Part shown: positions 1 to 5,549 of the stretch, piece after piece
Numbering within the stretch: position 1 is the first letter of the stretch
Layout: each line of letters starts with the position of its first letter
Source: Candidatus Firestoneibacteriota bacterium
Lineage (GTDB): Bacteria; JACRDZ01
Length of the DNA stretch: 5,549 nucleotides
NCBI GenBank assembly: GCA_016212735.1
Contig: JACRDZ010000128.1
Coordinates: 1-5,549 of the forward strand
Direction: 5' to 3'
Translations under genes and position numbers: made by a program
Notes under the pieces: generated by a model
What the model saw: only the letters and a program-made list of their open reading frames with translations
Told to the model about the DNA's origin: nothing
The model's database searches: none

Positions 1-1
1 C

Positions 2-2221
2 GAAGCTGCAGAATTACCAATAGATATTCAAGAAAATATATTGCAAGCATATTCTAAATTGCAACAGGATGGATCTTATGACTCAATTTTTGTCGCTGTA
101 AGATCATCTGCTACTGCTGAAGATTTACCTTCTGCCTCTTTTGCCGGGATGCATGATAGCTTTTTATATGTTTCTAGCCCTGATGAGTTTTTAAATGCTT
201 GTCGCAAATGTTATGCTAGTTTATATACTGAAAGAGCTATTCGCTATAGAGAACATCACAAGATAAATCACCAAGATGTTAAAATGGCAATTGTTGTTCA
301 AAAAATGATAAGTAGTGATAATGGATGTTCAGGAGTGGCTTTCACTGTTGATATTGAAACGGGTTTTGAAAATGGTATAGTTATAAATTCCGTATATGGT
401 CTTGGCGAGGGGCTTGTTAAGGGATATTTAACACCTGATGAATATTTTCTTTTCAAACCCGCATTAGAAAAAGGGAATCTTCCAATACTTAGTCGTAGAT
501 TTGCTGCAAAAGATACAAAATATATTTGGTCTTTAAAGGATAATAGAATTATACCAAATAAACTTTCATTTGAACAACTCAATACTTTTTCTCTTCCAAA
601 TGATATTTTAATTTCGCTTGGTCAACAATGCCTTGCTATTGAAAAACACTTTAGCATAAAAGCAGGTAAATTTACCCCTATGGATATAGAATGGGTTCTT
701 GATAATAACAGCAAATTATGGATCGTGCAAGCAAGACCAATCACTACTTTTTCACAAAAAAAACCATATTTACGCACTTATATATTAAAAGAAAGATCAA
801 AAATAATAGTTACCGGACAAGCTATAGGGAAGAAAATTGGACAAGGTTCAGCTATTATCCTTTCAGATCCAAATCAAATAAGAGAATTTAAACATGGAAA
901 TGTATTAGTTACCGATATGACAGATCCTGCCTGGATGCCAATAATGAAAAAAGCTTCTGCAATTGTAACAAATAGAGGTGGGCGTACTTGTCATGCTGCT
1001 ATTGTTTCCAGGGAAATGGGTTTACCCTGTATTATTGGTACAACTAATGCGACAGAAGTTATTCGTTCTGGGCAATCAATTACTGTGTCATGCATAGATG
1101 GAGATGAAGGGAAAGTATTTGAAGGTCTTCTTAAATTTGAAGTAAAAGAAAAATATATTGATACTTCACCAACAAAAACAAAACTTATGTTTCTTACAGG
1201 GCTACCAGATGCAGCACTTGTTGCGTCTAATTTGCCAAGCGATGGGGTTGCAATGGGAAGAGAAGAATTTATTATATACTCGTATATTGGTATACACCCA
1301 TTTGCGTTTATTCAATATGAAGAAATGAAACAAGATATTAAATTATTAAGACAAATGGAGAAAAAATATACTTTACAAGGAGCTGATAAGATTCAGCAAA
1401 TTATTGATGTAATCGAACATCAAAGTAGAGGATATAAAGATAAAGTTGAATTTTTTGTTGAAAAATTGGCAGAAGGAATGGCTAAAATTGCAGCCTCAGT
1501 ATATCCTAAAGAAGTCTATATGAAATTATGTGATTTCAAAACTAATGAATTTCGAGCTTTGGTCGGAGGTTTTCTTTATGAACCAATTGATAATAATCCA
1601 ATGATAGGTTGGCGTAGCGCATCACGTTACTACTCTGAGAGATACCGTCCAGTATTTGAATTAGAATGTCGTGCTTTTAAACGTGTGCGAGAAGATATGG
1701 GTTTTTCAAATATGCATATAATGATTCCTTTTTGCCGTTCTGTAACTGAAGCTAAGAATGTAGTTGAAGCTTTACGTCAATGTGGAATTGTCCAGCATAA
1801 AGATGGATTATTGGTAACGGCTGAAACCGAGGTGCCATCAAGTGTAATTGAAGCAATAGAATTTGCAAAGATTTTTGATATGTTCAATATTGGTTCAAAT
1901 GATTTAGCACAAATGGTGCTTGGAACAGACAGAGATTCTGAGTTACTAGCTCATATTTTTGATGAAAGGAACCCTGCTGTATTAAAATTTATAAAAGAAG
2001 CTATTGACAAAATTCATTCAGTCCCGCATAAAATAATTAATGGCAAAGAAGTAAAAGTAAAAATTGGACTTACCGGGGTAGCTGTGTCTAATTATCCCGA
2101 ATTTGCTCGTTTTCTTATTGAAAATGGTATTGATTATATAGGGCTTGATCCAGATCCGGAAAGTTTTTTAAGCATGAGAGAGCGGATATTGGAAATTGAA
2201 CGTGAGATTGGATTAAGGTAA
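2..2221 (+). CDS. ppsA: Phosphoenolpyruvate synthase homologue with altered PEP/pyruvate site (5' partial)
   Basis: The frame is open from the first bases, so the true start lies upstream; by recalled alignment with E. coli PpsA (792 aa) about 95 residues are missing and 739 are present. PpsA normally converts ATP, pyruvate and water to PEP, AMP and phosphate through a phosphohistidine, in the cytoplasm. Domain order is canonical. The ATP-grasp domain (nt 2 to about 750) has VRSSATAEDLPSASFAG, SGVAFTVDIETGFE, GLGE, PMDIEW and VQARP. The swivelling domain has GGRTCHAA with the phospho-accepting His codon at 992-994. The C-terminal TIM barrel spans about nt 1170-2200. The first two domains look fully functional. 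The barrel is odd: Cys in the GICGQ motif is Thr (2072-2074), Arg in VRLSDFK is Lys (1523-1525), Asn in MMNVG is Leu (1193-1195), Thr in GSNDMTQ is Ala (1907-1909), and Asn of the NPD motif is Asp (2147-2149). The Arg of the REEF segment and the Glu of EVPS are kept. Family assignment is certain; PEP-forming activity is doubtful. Terminates with TAA. Confidence 0.95.
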   Translation, partial: EAAELPIDIQENILQAYSKLQQDGSYDSIFVAVRSSATAEDLPSASFAGMHDSFLYVSSPDEFLNACRKCYASLYTERAIRYREHHKINHQDVKMAIVVQKMISSDNGCSGVAFTVDIETGFENGIVINSVYGLGEGLVKGYLTPDEYFLFKPALEKGNLPILSRRFAAKDTKYIWSLKDNRIIPNKLSFEQLNTFSLPNDILISLGQQCLAIEKHFSIKAGKFTPMDIEWVLDNNSKLWIVQARPITTFSQKKPYLRTYILKERSKIIVTGQAIGKKIGQGSAIILSDPNQIREFKHGNVLVTDMTDPAWMPIMKKASAIVTNRGGRTCHAAIVSREMGLPCIIGTTNATEVIRSGQSITVSCIDGDEGKVFEGLLKFEVKEKYIDTSPTKTKLMFLTGLPDAALVASNLPSDGVAMGREEFIIYSYIGIHPFAFIQYEEMKQDIKLLRQMEKKYTLQGADKIQQIIDVIEHQSRGYKDKVEFFVEKLAEGMAKIAASVYPKEVYMKLCDFKTNEFRALVGGFLYEPIDNNPMIGWRSASRYYSERYRPVFELECRAFKRVREDMGFSNMHIMIPFCRSVTEAKNVVEALRQCGIVQHKDGLLVTAETEVPSSVIEAIEFAKIFDMFNIGSNDLAQMVLGTDRDSELLAHIFDERNPAVLKFIKEAIDKIHSVPHKIINGKEVKVKIGLTGVAVSNYPEFARFLIENGIDYIGLDPDPESFLSMRERILEIEREIGLR

Positions 2222-2293
2222 CGTTTATTAATACTCTAATAATAAATTAATTTCCTATTATATTGAATTTTGTATAGCTCTGGTACAGAATAT

Positions 2294-2299
2294 GAGGAG
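2294..2299 (+). promoter_or_regulatory. Ribosome binding site deciding a TTG start
   Basis: GAGGAG lies 8 nt before the TTG at 2308. An in-frame TGA at 2293-2295 blocks any earlier start, and the next in-frame Met falls inside the first membrane helix, so this site supports TTG as the real initiator. Confidence 0.75.
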
Positions 2300-2307
2300 A
2301 AATAGAC

Positions 2308-3765
2308 TTGAAGATAACTAAAAATAATAAAAAAGATAGTGAAACTAACTCTAATTCTCAATTAGAAACATCTAAACTTAAATCTTTAGTCTTTTACTTG
2401 TTAATGGTAATCGTGGGAGTCCTTTTTTTTCTTGCAGGGGCTATTGTTGAATCTTTTGTTAAGCAAAATGTACCGTCAATGCCTGAATGGCTTAAAAGTT
2501 TGTTAACATTCCCAATACCACTCGCAGGTGTTACTATTCTTTCGCATTTTGTACCACTTGCAATAAATTGGAGAGGAAAACCTAAACAAGAAGAAGAAAA
2601 AATAGAACGTGAAGCAGAAAAAATTGCTGAGAAAGTTAAACTAAAATTAGAACAAACATGTAACAACTGTATGGTTGTGGAAAATATTAAAGATAATAGC
2701 AGGTGGTGCCGTTGGCTTGGACCTATATCAGATGTCTATAAAACTCGAGATACTATACCATTGGTAGAATTCTTTAATGGTGTAAAAGAAATTGATATAT
2801 TGACACCAAATTTATGGGAAATCGCTGAAAATGATGATGTAATGAAGATCCTTCAAGAAAATGATAATGTTCGTTTAATGTCCCTCCATCCTGAGTGCTC
2901 ATCAGTATATCGCAGATACAATGATATGTTAGATGAACAAGGGCGACCTCCTAAAGATATAAAAGATAGAAAGGATTATCAACGTAAAATTCGCATGGGA
3001 TTGGATAATTTTCATGGGTGTAGGAAGGATAATAAAAAGAATAATTGGTTAATTAAGACATATACCTCTTATCCAGTAATAATGTTATATCGGGCTGATA
3101 ATAGGTTCCTTTTAAGTTTTCCATTAAAAGGTAATCGTGTAAAATATCAATTTCATTTGGATCTTAAACTCCCAGATAGAACTTTAGAAACTTTAGAAAA
3201 ACTAAAAGGCAAAAAAGGGGAAGATATTATCCCACCAGATATGGAACTTGGGGCAAAAGTTCAAAATGACCTTAAGTGTCATTTTGATGGAATTTTGAAA
3301 GAAGAAAAGACTATTCCATGGATACCACGCGCTGAAATTTTTGAAAAAATACTTGCTTTAAACCATCCTTCAATAATTAATTTGAATAATTGCATAAACA
3401 ATAGGAATATAACTAATAATAAAAGTTTAATTAAAAACAATAACCAAGCATTGAAAGACTTAATAAATAAAGATATATCTAATCTTACTGAAGAATATAA
3501 ATTAGATGAAAAGACCAAAAGTGCTATTATCGAAAATTTGTTGAAAATACTAGTATGCATTGAAGAAACAGTTTTGGAAGGAGATAATATTAACAATAAA
3601 CTAATCCAAAAATTATCTGATAACATATCAACAGATAAATTTGAATTTGAAGATTGCGCTGAAGTATTATATATCCTCAGAAAAAAAAATAATGCTATAA
3701 TACCTTTTAATTTTAATCAAATTTGGGAAAATATAAAGAATCATGCTGCAGAATGGGCAGGTTAA
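2308..3765 (+). CDS. Two-helix membrane protein with predicted PLD-like domain, function unknown
   Basis: I do not recognise a named family. The 485-residue product starts at TTG. Residues 1-25 are polar and Lys/Asn/Ser-rich; hydrophobic segments at about 27-47 and 65-86 are likely membrane helices. A charged Glu/Lys helix (about 92-116) follows, probably a short coiled coil, then Cys118-x-x-Cys121. Residues about 140-290 alternate strands and helices in a way that resembles one phospholipase-D-superfamily lobe: VKEIDILTPNLWE, then NVRLMSLHPECS, a helix with YRRYNDML, and a late pair of strands around YPVIMLYRADNRFLLSFPLKG. No HxKxxxxD motif is present, so if the fold call is right the domain is probably non-hydrolytic. 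An Asn-rich linker (about 357-380) leads to a helical C-terminus (about 381-485). The topology suggests a membrane-anchored cytoplasmic sensor or effector. It sits 86 nt after the PpsA homologue and 77 nt before the PanD-like gene. A run of nine A (3681-3689) lies near the 3' end. The gene itself is well supported; the fold is an inference. Confidence 0.85.
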   Translation: MKITKNNKKDSETNSNSQLETSKLKSLVFYLLMVIVGVLFFLAGAIVESFVKQNVPSMPEWLKSLLTFPIPLAGVTILSHFVPLAINWRGKPKQEEEKIEREAEKIAEKVKLKLEQTCNNCMVVENIKDNSRWCRWLGPISDVYKTRDTIPLVEFFNGVKEIDILTPNLWEIAENDDVMKILQENDNVRLMSLHPECSSVYRRYNDMLDEQGRPPKDIKDRKDYQRKIRMGLDNFHGCRKDNKKNNWLIKTYTSYPVIMLYRADNRFLLSFPLKGNRVKYQFHLDLKLPDRTLETLEKLKGKKGEDIIPPDMELGAKVQNDLKCHFDGILKEEKTIPWIPRAEIFEKILALNHPSIINLNNCINNRNITNNKSLIKNNNQALKDLINKDISNLTEEYKLDEKTKSAIIENLLKILVCIEETVLEGDNINNKLIQKLSDNISTDKFEFEDCAEVLYILRKKNNAIIPFNFNQIWENIKNHAAEWAG

Positions 3766-3827
3766 TTTTATTGATTATTAGTAATTAAACACATATTTTT
3801 TTAGAATTTTCAACATATATTAATTAA

Positions 3828-3833
3828 AAAGGG
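3828..3833 (+). promoter_or_regulatory. Ribosome binding site of the PanD-like gene
   Basis: AAAGGG lies 9 nt before the ATG at 3843. It is a modest match to the anti-Shine-Dalgarno sequence. An in-frame TAA directly precedes the ATG, so no earlier start is possible. Confidence 0.6.
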
Positions 3834-3842
3834 AAAACATAA

Positions 3843-4691
3843 ATGCAATCATTATTTTATCAATTCAAAAGAACTGCAATTCATAATATTTTAATTACTT
3901 CATCTATCTCGAATCCTAAAACAGACATTATAGAAGGGCTTGTACTACCTGAAAAATTAATGAAACTTGGAGATATAGTACCCTATGAGAGAATTTTGGT
4001 TACTAAACATAATGGAGATAATTGGATAAATCGTGTATATAGTTTTGCTATACCTGGTGATGGAGAAACAGTCGAAGCACGTGGTTCTCTATCGCATTTT
4101 TTAAAACCAGAGGAATGCTGTTGTATTATATCAGAAACATATTTTAATTCAAATCAATATAAAGCATATTGTACATACAATTTATCTATTCCAATAATTG
4201 ATATTAGATTTCATCCAGAAAATGATAACCAATTAAATAATTTTTCTTCTTTGAAAATAGCTTTAGAATTTCCAGATAAAATATTACATTGTGAAAAAAT
4301 TGATAAAGAGATATTAAACCAACGACAACATTTGCCAAGAATAATGCTTTCTAATCTGGTTTTTGGACTTAAAGTTTCAGAAATTGAACGGCAGTGCCTT
4401 GAAATGAATGCAGAACTTCCAGTTGAAATTATGAGTAAAACTGGTTTAGTTAAAAACCAAACTATTTTTGTTTTTAATGCAAGCAGAGGGGGGATATCAG
4501 CAGAAAGTTTTGTTGTACCGAATACACGAAATAATAATATAACAATTTCAGGAGCATTATCAAAAGTTGCAGATATAGATGATGTTATTTCCGAAGCAGC
4601 ATTTGTCATAACAAATAAAATATTAGAACCTACTATATTTAACGCAAAAAATAGTGTAACTATTCAGCACAAACATGAAAAAATATTTTAG
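3843..4691 (+). CDS. Tandem PanD-like (aspartate 1-decarboxylase fold) protein lacking the pyruvoyl-forming serine
   Basis: The 282-residue product is about twice the usual PanD length (E. coli PanD is 126 aa) and reads as two PanD-like double-psi beta barrels. Domain 1 (about 5-100) keeps a His equivalent to PanD His11 (H14), the LPEKLMKLGDIVPYE segment that matches PanD IDQDFLDAAGILENE, an Arg equivalent to Arg54 (R64), and ARGSLSH in place of VNGAAAH. Domain 2 (about 165-262) has LPRIMLSN like the PanD start, LPVEIMSKTGLVKNQ, FNASRGG, and ISGALSKVADIDDVI matching VNGAAAHCASVGDIV. PanD self-cleaves at Gly24-Ser25 to form the pyruvoyl cofactor. Domain 1 has Glu-Gly (or Gly-Leu if shifted one residue) there, and domain 2 has Met-Asn, so neither can make the cofactor by the known route. 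Domain 2 also lacks the Lys9, His11 and Arg54 equivalents. A binding or scaffold role is more likely than decarboxylation. There is no signal peptide or membrane helix, so it is probably cytoplasmic. Homology is read from recalled sequences and is convincing for both halves, more so for the C-terminal parts of each. Confidence 0.88.
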   Translation: MQSLFYQFKRTAIHNILITSSISNPKTDIIEGLVLPEKLMKLGDIVPYERILVTKHNGDNWINRVYSFAIPGDGETVEARGSLSHFLKPEECCCIISETYFNSNQYKAYCTYNLSIPIIDIRFHPENDNQLNNFSSLKIALEFPDKILHCEKIDKEILNQRQHLPRIMLSNLVFGLKVSEIERQCLEMNAELPVEIMSKTGLVKNQTIFVFNASRGGISAESFVVPNTRNNNITISGALSKVADIDDVISEAAFVITNKILEPTIFNAKNSVTIQHKHEKIF

Positions 4692-4730
4692 TTTTAACCC
4701 TCAAATTACGATATATTAAAATAAAATACG

Positions 4731-4735
4731 TGGGG
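4731..4735 (+). promoter_or_regulatory. Ribosome binding site deciding the transposase TTG start
   Basis: TGGGG ends 7 nt before the TTG at 4743. The codon just before that TTG is TAA in frame, and the next in-frame ATG (4836) would remove the N-terminal helix, so TTG with this site is the best start. Confidence 0.55.
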
Positions 4736-4742
4736 TAATTAA

Positions 4743-5549
4743 TTGAAAATAGAAAATATAGGCATCAATGCAACAATTGAGAAAGTAGAAAAATTTCTTA
4801 AAGAAGAAAAAGATATATCGTCATCAGTAAGATCAATGTTTGAATTGTTGCTTGTAATTGTAACATTGCTTGTCAATCGATTAAATCTTAACAGCCGTAA
4901 TAGCAGCAAGCCGCCATCGATAGATCGAAATAGAAAGCGTCCGGAAAAAGTAAAAGGAGAAAAGAAACCTGGCGGACAAAAAGGACATGATGGAATAACG
5001 CTAAAAAAAGTTGATAATCCGGATGAAATAGTTCATCTGGAAGTTGATAAAAGAACAATACCACATGGAGAATACAAAGAAGTCGGTTGTGAATCAAGGC
5101 AAATCATTGACATAAATATCAGGCGGCATGTAATAGAATATCGGGCTCAAATATTAGAAAGTGAAGACGGAAAGCAGTTTACAGCAAAGTTTCCTGAGAA
5201 TGTTACAAGACCTGTTCAATATGGGACAAAATTAAAAGCAACAGCAGTTAATATGTCACAGTATCAATTAATACCATATAATCGGATAGAAGAAGATTTT
5301 CAAGATAAAGGGATACCCGTCAGTGCCGGATCAATATGCAATTTTAATAAAGAGGCATACGATTCATTAGAGAAATTTGAAGAAATAGTAAAAAGAAAGC
5401 TGCTGGAGTCAGCGGTTCTTCACGGAGATGAAACAGGGATAAATTCCAATGGAGACCAGTATTGGCTACACAGCTTATCAAACAATTTATGGACATATTT
5501 TTATCCTCATAAAAAAAGAGGAAGTGAAGCAATGGATGAAATGGGGATA
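4743..5549 (+). CDS. IS66-family transposase (3' partial)
   Basis: 269 codons run open to the window end; IS66 transposases are usually about 450-550 aa, so roughly half is present. The enzyme is the DDE recombinase that cuts and joins the ends of the element. Recognisable parts in order: an N-terminal leucine-rich helix (about 10-50) of the IS66 leucine-zipper type, the NSRNSSKPPS motif (50-59), the basic KPGGQKGHDG segment (75-84), a region where the IS66 zinc ribbon normally lies (about 105-145), then the start of the catalytic core with VQYGTKLKATAV (158-169) and the first catalytic Asp in LHGDETG (D229, codon 5427-5429), followed by WLHS. The CxxC pairs of the usual zinc ribbon are absent; only a lone Cys116 remains in that region. 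Codons are visibly richer in G and C than in the three genes upstream, in line with recent transfer. Whether the second and third acidic residues are intact cannot be seen. Family call is very secure. Confidence 0.95.
   Translation, partial: MKIENIGINATIEKVEKFLKEEKDISSSVRSMFELLLVIVTLLVNRLNLNSRNSSKPPSIDRNRKRPEKVKGEKKPGGQKGHDGITLKKVDNPDEIVHLEVDKRTIPHGEYKEVGCESRQIIDINIRRHVIEYRAQILESEDGKQFTAKFPENVTRPVQYGTKLKATAVNMSQYQLIPYNRIEEDFQDKGIPVSAGSICNFNKEAYDSLEKFEEIVKRKLLESAVLHGDETGINSNGDQYWLHSLSNNLWTYFYPHKKRGSEAMDEMGI

Follow-up and report, generated by a model that had tools for sequence, protein, structure and literature searches.

A two-barrel relative of aspartate decarboxylase with apparent complementary loss of active-site residues between its barrels, and a derived clade whose member studied here is predicted to lack the pyruvoyl group

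PanD (L-aspartate α-decarboxylase; PF02261, TIGR00223) is established as an enzyme of one domain that processes itself. According to the available part of PMC3314653, its substrate is surrounded by the unmarked residues Pyr25, Thr57 and Tyr58 together with Lys9* and Arg54*, which the neighbouring subunit supplies, and the available part of PMC6969166 also places Arg54* from the neighbouring subunit at the site. Activation of E. coli PanD is described in excerpted text of PMC3975893 as requiring Thr57 and not Tyr58. In trypanosomes, AdoMet decarboxylase and its dead paralogue (prozyme) are separate chains and operate by relief of autoinhibition, as stated in an excerpt of PMC5201418. Among the open-access papers listed by the searches, none concerned, judging by its title or the start of its abstract, a PanD that is duplicated or in tandem; as the searches covered open-access papers only, this is no proof of absence. 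Within this literature, the tandem PanD reported here is apparently a previously undescribed variant of the PanD type.

The window, meaning the whole stretch of DNA analysed, comprises 5,549 nucleotides from Candidatus Firestoneibacteriota bacterium (contig JACRDZ010000128.1, positions 1 to 5,549 of the forward strand). Its genes and the parts of the tandem PanD-like product were assigned as follows.

2-2221, + strand: phosphoenolpyruvate synthase (NF005057, 840.6 bits), truncated at its 5' end by the contig boundary
2308-3765, + strand: 485-aa protein whose N-terminus carries a hydrophobic stretch, upstream of the tandem PanD gene
3827..3837, + strand: candidate ribosome-binding site, purine-rich, before the ATG (by eye)
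3843..4691, + strand: tandem PanD-like gene (P0001), 282 aa, open frame with ATG start
3852..4178, + strand: N-terminal PanD barrel, residues 4-112
4179..4316, + strand: linker, residues 113-158, with invariant Asp120 (98/98, family alignment)
4320..4622, + strand: C-terminal PanD barrel, residues ~160-260 (E. coli PanD profile match and phmmer)
4743-5549, + strand: IS66-type transposase ORF, separated by 51 bp from the tandem PanD gene and running off the window end

The 485-aa protein gave no Pfam match over cut-off, no PHROG match and no PDB match; a weak PADLOC match to ThsB (TIR-like) was obtained at 16.9 bits over residues 100-153. The tandem PanD protein of the window had no PADLOC match.

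The presence of two PanD barrels in one chain, as claimed by the original prediction, was upheld by the whole-protein match to PF02261, the profile search of the PDB, the comparison of the two halves, and the AlphaFold2 model with its Foldseek matches. PF02261 (Asp_decarbox) scored 33.5 bits against the whole 282-aa protein, over the curated cut-off of 25, and the single halves scored 21.2 bits (E 2.8e-4) and 16.9 bits (E 0.006), both below it. When a profile of 98 relatives was compared with the PDB, PanD chains only were returned (25/25 matches at E≤1), the best stretch for the N half being M. tuberculosis PanD 2c45 (E 4.2e-8) and that for the C half E. coli PanD 1pyq (E 7.4e-9, profile positions 154-253). 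With the window protein alone, phmmer matched the C half to PanD at residues 162-256 (E 0.013), and profile-profile alignment of the N half with the C half in hhalign gave a probability of 96.9% (E 1.7e-10, 14% identity). The AlphaFold2 model of the whole protein, built on 21 alignment rows, had a mean pLDDT of 89.6, and PanD accounted for 20 of the 21 Foldseek matches at E≤0.001; the N half has the double-psi barrel fold of PanD. Folded alone on only 5 rows, the C half reached a pLDDT of 53, too low for the model to be informative. Among the 50 structure rows listed, the C half (172-253) was covered by general double-psi barrel domains only; these rows list one row per entry and are therefore no evidence against PanD for this half. 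The PanD equivalog TIGR00223, with a cut-off of 106 bits, was failed by the window protein (15 bits) and equally by all 8 tandem relatives scanned (16.9-40.9 bits).

Searching for homologues of the same two-domain layout, as proposed with the original prediction, recovered that layout in relatives of 28-69% identity. The first search returned 20 relatives at E≤0.01 besides the window protein, and the profile search returned 111 matches, query included. Of these, 98 were aligned and 13 were excluded for short length, truncation, a weak match or a different architecture (P0019, P0209, P0210, P0217, P0220, P0221, P0224 and P0226-P0231). PF02261 was matched by all 98 aligned members. Two barrels, Arg64, the linker Asp120, Cys94 and Cys185 are common to the family and are all present in the window protein, which is 64-69% identical to P0002-P0005. 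Named members come from Candidatus Aminicenantes (P0004, locus JSV88_33700), Goodfellowiella, Eleftheria terrae, Thermoleptolyngbya oregonensis (P0146) and Ca. Falkowbacteria (P0202), and several carry the source label 'aspartate 1-decarboxylase'. Around the actinobacterial members, tandem PanDs are rare, being found in 3 of 297 genomes of the family, 2 of 397 of the order and 1 of 396 in a phylum sample; the centre genome G001 is included in each count and the three samples overlap. The tandem PanD family is apparently scattered and so far undescribed. A viral or mobile origin was rejected: no relatives were found in the IMG/VR scans or in PHROGs, none on plasmids (queries P0001 and P0146) and none in phages (query P0160 only). 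One of the excluded matches, P0231, is a 397-aa chain with PF02569, which we take to be pantoate ligase, and PF02261, and is a possible PanC-PanD fusion.

The residues of PanD that form and line the pyruvoyl site were located in each half as listed below.

3882..3884, + strand: His14, equivalent to PanD His11, N half (His in 94/98, gaps in 3, Tyr in 1)
3933..3938, + strand: Glu31-Gly32, at the PanD Gly24-Ser25 positions, N half (structure rows, hhalign register)
4023..4034, + strand: Trp61-x-Asn63-Arg64, Arg64 equivalent to PanD Arg54 (Arg64 in 98/98, Asn63 in 97/98, Trp61 in 94/98)
4404..4409, + strand: Met188-Asn189, at the PanD Gly24-Ser25 positions, C half (several concordant alignments)
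4506..4511, + strand: Ser222-Phe223, at the PanD Thr57-Tyr58 positions, C half (family alignment)

The N-half register was set by chain residue 25, the first residue of processed PanD chains, which sits on model residue 32. At this position Gly was present in 96 of the 98 rows with a gap in the other 2, Ser being found in none, and the preceding Gly24 position (Glu31) was Glu in 94/98. In the C half, the Ser25 position (residue 189) was occupied by Ser in 91 rows, Asn in 5, Asp in 1 and Thr in 1, and the Gly24 position (residue 188) by Gly in 78, Met in 17, Leu in 2 and Val in 1 (n=98 for both). The window protein has the self-cleavage pair Gly24-Ser25 in neither half, carrying Glu31-Gly32 and Met188-Asn189, so that the claimed absence of the self-cleavage Ser from both halves (Gly32 and Asn189) was confirmed. 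The motifs quoted with the original prediction, ARGSLSH and ISGALSK, correspond to the NGAAAH strand of PanD and not to the cleavage point. The interpretation given there was supported in part: the notion that the tandem layout is intrinsically unprocessed did not hold, as the C half of 78 of the 98 aligned relatives has Gly-Ser together with equivalents of Thr57 and Tyr58.

Arginine at the Arg54 position is confined to the N half: Arg64 is the only equivalent in the window protein, and the C-half position is V, I, M, A, T, F, S, C or L across the family (Arg 0/98). From its equivalence to Arg54, Arg64 would be expected to face the site of the partner barrel. The Tyr58 position is Tyr in 96/98 C halves and Phe or Trp in 97/98 N halves; the Thr57 position, where both halves have Thr or Ser, does not tell them apart. 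The window protein lacks the Thr57-Tyr58 pair, having Ser67-Phe68 in the N half and Ser222-Phe223 in the C half. Lys9 is also missing from it, the N-half and C-half counterparts being Ala12 and Leu172, and in the family this position is, in register, Ala or Cys and once Ser in the N half and mostly Leu in the C half. Since Lys9 is gone from both halves, the substrate may differ from aspartate even in members that keep Gly-Ser, and this counts against a simple division of the PanD site between the halves. Two cysteines, Cys94 (4122-4124) and Cys185 (4395-4397), are invariant (98/98), and Cys185 lies four residues ahead of the Ser25 position.

Arg54 crosses from the neighbouring subunit in PanD, and in the tandem family the Ser and Tyr58 positions are kept in the C half only and the arginine in the N half only; the losses in the two halves are therefore complementary. 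This distribution suggests one composite active site per chain, assembled from cofactor residues of the C barrel and the arginine of the N barrel. Such an arrangement could have arisen if PanD was duplicated in one chain and complementary loss between the barrels followed, the C barrel keeping the pyruvoyl-forming Gly-Ser, the processing Thr and the proton-donor Tyr, and the N barrel, without the Ser, retaining the arginine with which a PanD subunit contributes to the site next to it. A pair of chains would then form a pseudo-tetramer, as suggested in the original prediction and plausible for a tandem PanD, with two working and two dead interfaces. Judged by conserved residues, most of the tandem family look like pyruvoyl enzymes with one composite site per chain, and the family ancestor was likely a pyruvoyl decarboxylase of this kind.

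The C-half equivalents of Gly24, Ser25, Thr57 and Tyr58 were complete in 78 of the 98 rows (78/78 for each; GS rows). In the 20 non-GS rows, Gly24 was lost and Thr57 was replaced by Ser (Ser222) throughout (20/20 each), the Ser25 position was Ser in 13, Asn in 5, Asp in 1 and Thr in 1, and position 223 was Tyr in 18, with Phe only in the window protein and P0012. These rows nevertheless keep Arg64, Trp61, Asn63, Cys94 and Cys185 (20/20 each) and His14 (19/20, 1 gap). A quick IQ-TREE tree was calculated from 70 rows, obtained by thinning the 98 at 80% identity, after removal of the cleavage-site columns; it was left unrooted and SH-aLRT was the only support used. The 17 non-GS rows on this tree fell on one side of a branch with SH-aLRT 100, requiring a single change, and the residue at the Ser position required at least 5 changes on the same tree. 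The window protein belongs to the non-GS clade and is not of the GS type (Met-Asn, Ser-Phe); none of its residues at the four positions (M, N, S and F) is that of PanD. As the tree is unrooted, loss in the non-GS clade is proposed as the simpler direction because PanD itself has Gly-Ser. Other pyruvoyl enzymes cleave before a Ser that is preceded by residues besides Gly. Given such cleavage and the Ser kept in 13 of the 20 non-GS rows, part of the clade, for example the EMS-type members, may still be self-processed.

Tandem PanDs of the non-GS clade were found at the end of a cassette with the order divergent ArsR regulator, MFS exporter, FAD monooxygenase and tandem PanD in 4/4 actinobacterial loci (L001, L002, L003 and L015). 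Three of the loci came from a genome scan (Amycolatopsis anabasis, Solihabitans fulvus and Goodfellowiella coeruleoviolacea) and the fourth from G158, so that the cassette evidence concerns one actinobacterial family only, presumably Pseudonocardiaceae. Outside the cassette the four loci share only distant paralogues of common families. The exporter is EmrB-like, of the DHA2-type MFS, and scored 208.7 bits, short of the 230.2 required for the family; the FAD protein exceeded the cut-offs of PF13434 (Lys/Orn N-oxygenase) and of Pyr_redox families. Among 297 genomes, of which just the best 6-8 candidates per genome were scored, a close relative of the FAD protein (E≤1e-90) was found in 4 and a tandem PanD in 3, and every genome with the tandem PanD also had the FAD relative; the chance of this overlap is about 1e-6 (4/C(297,3), calculated by hand) if kinship is ignored. 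The FAD gene without a tandem PanD occurred in G211 (46% identity), and for the Amycolatopsis coloradensis relative of the FAD protein (P0027, 63%) no tandem PanD from that species was named among the profile matches. The best 120 of 2,607 FAD relatives included no row named Eleftheria or Aminicenantes, most rows being nameless. Neither flavin monooxygenase nor exporter genes were found beside the tandem PanD in the 5.5-kb window. Two genomes (G001 and G002, loci L004-L007) each contain two ordinary single-domain Gly-Ser PanDs alongside the tandem PanD, which is therefore probably not the source of beta-alanine there. Taken with its neighbours, the actinobacterial tandem PanD probably serves a small-molecule function that involves an exporter, and the four-gene cassette is a compact candidate for an uncharacterised small-molecule pathway.

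We consider it reasonably probable that the window protein is a two-barrel PanD relative, from a family marked by complementary loss, that is itself pyruvoyl-less and has a putative acid-binding pocket. After the division of the site between the barrels, its clade would have lost the processing residues (Met188-Asn189 and Ser222 in the window protein, which also has Phe223 for Tyr58), and from these replacements the protein is predicted to be unable to form a pyruvoyl group by the PanD route. The arginine-bearing half-pocket that was kept is predicted to bind an aspartate-like acid, perhaps with a pyruvoyl-free conversion; that the protein binds or acts on such an acid without pyruvoyl is proposed with moderate confidence. 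In the actinobacterial relatives, this conversion would occur in step with the flavin monooxygenase and the exporter. That the protein is instead a pure pseudoenzyme, as the original prediction proposed, binding a ligand or partner only, for instance as a sensor or as a subunit of another complex, is rather unlikely in our judgement. The absence of the pyruvoyl-forming residue from both halves and the further change of Tyr58 to Phe would fit such a role, as would the inconstant Ser position (S, N, D or T) in that part of the clade to which the query belongs and the two Gly-Ser PanDs present in each of two actinobacterial genomes with a clade member; retention of Arg64, Trp61, Asn63, Cys94 and Cys185 in every non-GS row, and of His14 in all but one, argues against it, and the oxidative enzyme and exporter adjoining the actinobacterial members suggest a metabolic step.

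A more specific proposal would make the protein a pyruvoyl-free enzyme, in which an aspartate-like amine is first N-oxygenated by the flavin monooxygenase and the product is then decarboxylated or otherwise processed in the PanD pocket; with the oxidised nitrogen as electron sink, the pyruvoyl group would have become dispensable. The pairing of the FAD and tandem PanD genes within a single actinobacterial family and the PF13434 and Pyr_redox matches of the FAD protein are consistent with this, and the available part of PMC10404684 describes conversion of nitrosuccinate to 3-nitropropionate by spontaneous decarboxylation. We nevertheless regard it as improbable: none of the 18 PDB matches of the FAD protein (E≤0.01) is named aspartate N-hydroxylase, the FAD gene is absent from the 5.5-kb window, and the four FAD-adjacent tandem PanDs retain Ser (EMS) and not Asn. 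Slightly less credence still is given to the extended form of the proposal, by which the lineage dropped pyruvoyl since the partner flavoprotein N-oxygenates the substrate, leaving the old pocket to act without a cofactor in a small-molecule pathway that has a dedicated exporter and regulator; the ancestors would be pyruvoyl enzymes whose sites were each shared by a dead and a live barrel. Decay of a once-active tandem decarboxylase beside an IS66-type element could be read from the transposase ORF 51 bp downstream and from loss of the processing Ser, and is very improbable in view of the open 282-aa frame, the 64-69% identity to P0002-P0005, the confident fold and the kept Arg64; moreover, loss of Gly24 is common to 20/98 rows in one clade, so it is not recent, which also argues against decay.

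Compared with PanD, the two-barrel protein that we favour as a pyruvoyl-less relative shares the fold and the family, and the positions of Arg54, Thr/Ser57, Gly73 and the C-half Ala74 are recognisable; it differs in having two barrels per chain, in scoring 15 against 106 bits on the equivalog, and in lacking Gly-Ser and Lys9. With the GS-type tandem PanDs (for example P0146 and P0202) it shares the layout, Asp120, Cys94, Cys185 and Arg64; those proteins keep Gly-Ser, Thr57 and Tyr58 and are probably processed, whereas the window protein is predicted to be unprocessed. The name 'aspartate 1-decarboxylase' is unsafe for members of the non-GS clade. AdoMet decarboxylase has a fold that differs from that of PanD. 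The tandem PanDs would resemble the AdoMet decarboxylase/prozyme pair in that a pyruvoyl decarboxylase is completed or controlled by a dead copy, as far as the excerpt of PMC5201418 describes that system. Unlike the prozyme system, the tandem PanD is one chain, and its arginine would be donated across the interface. Where PanD is a single self-processing domain, the tandem family appears to divide the site between one barrel that donates the arginine and another that makes the cofactor, and the passage from the GS family to a putatively cofactor-less clade would provide a natural series on what each half of a pyruvoyl site does.
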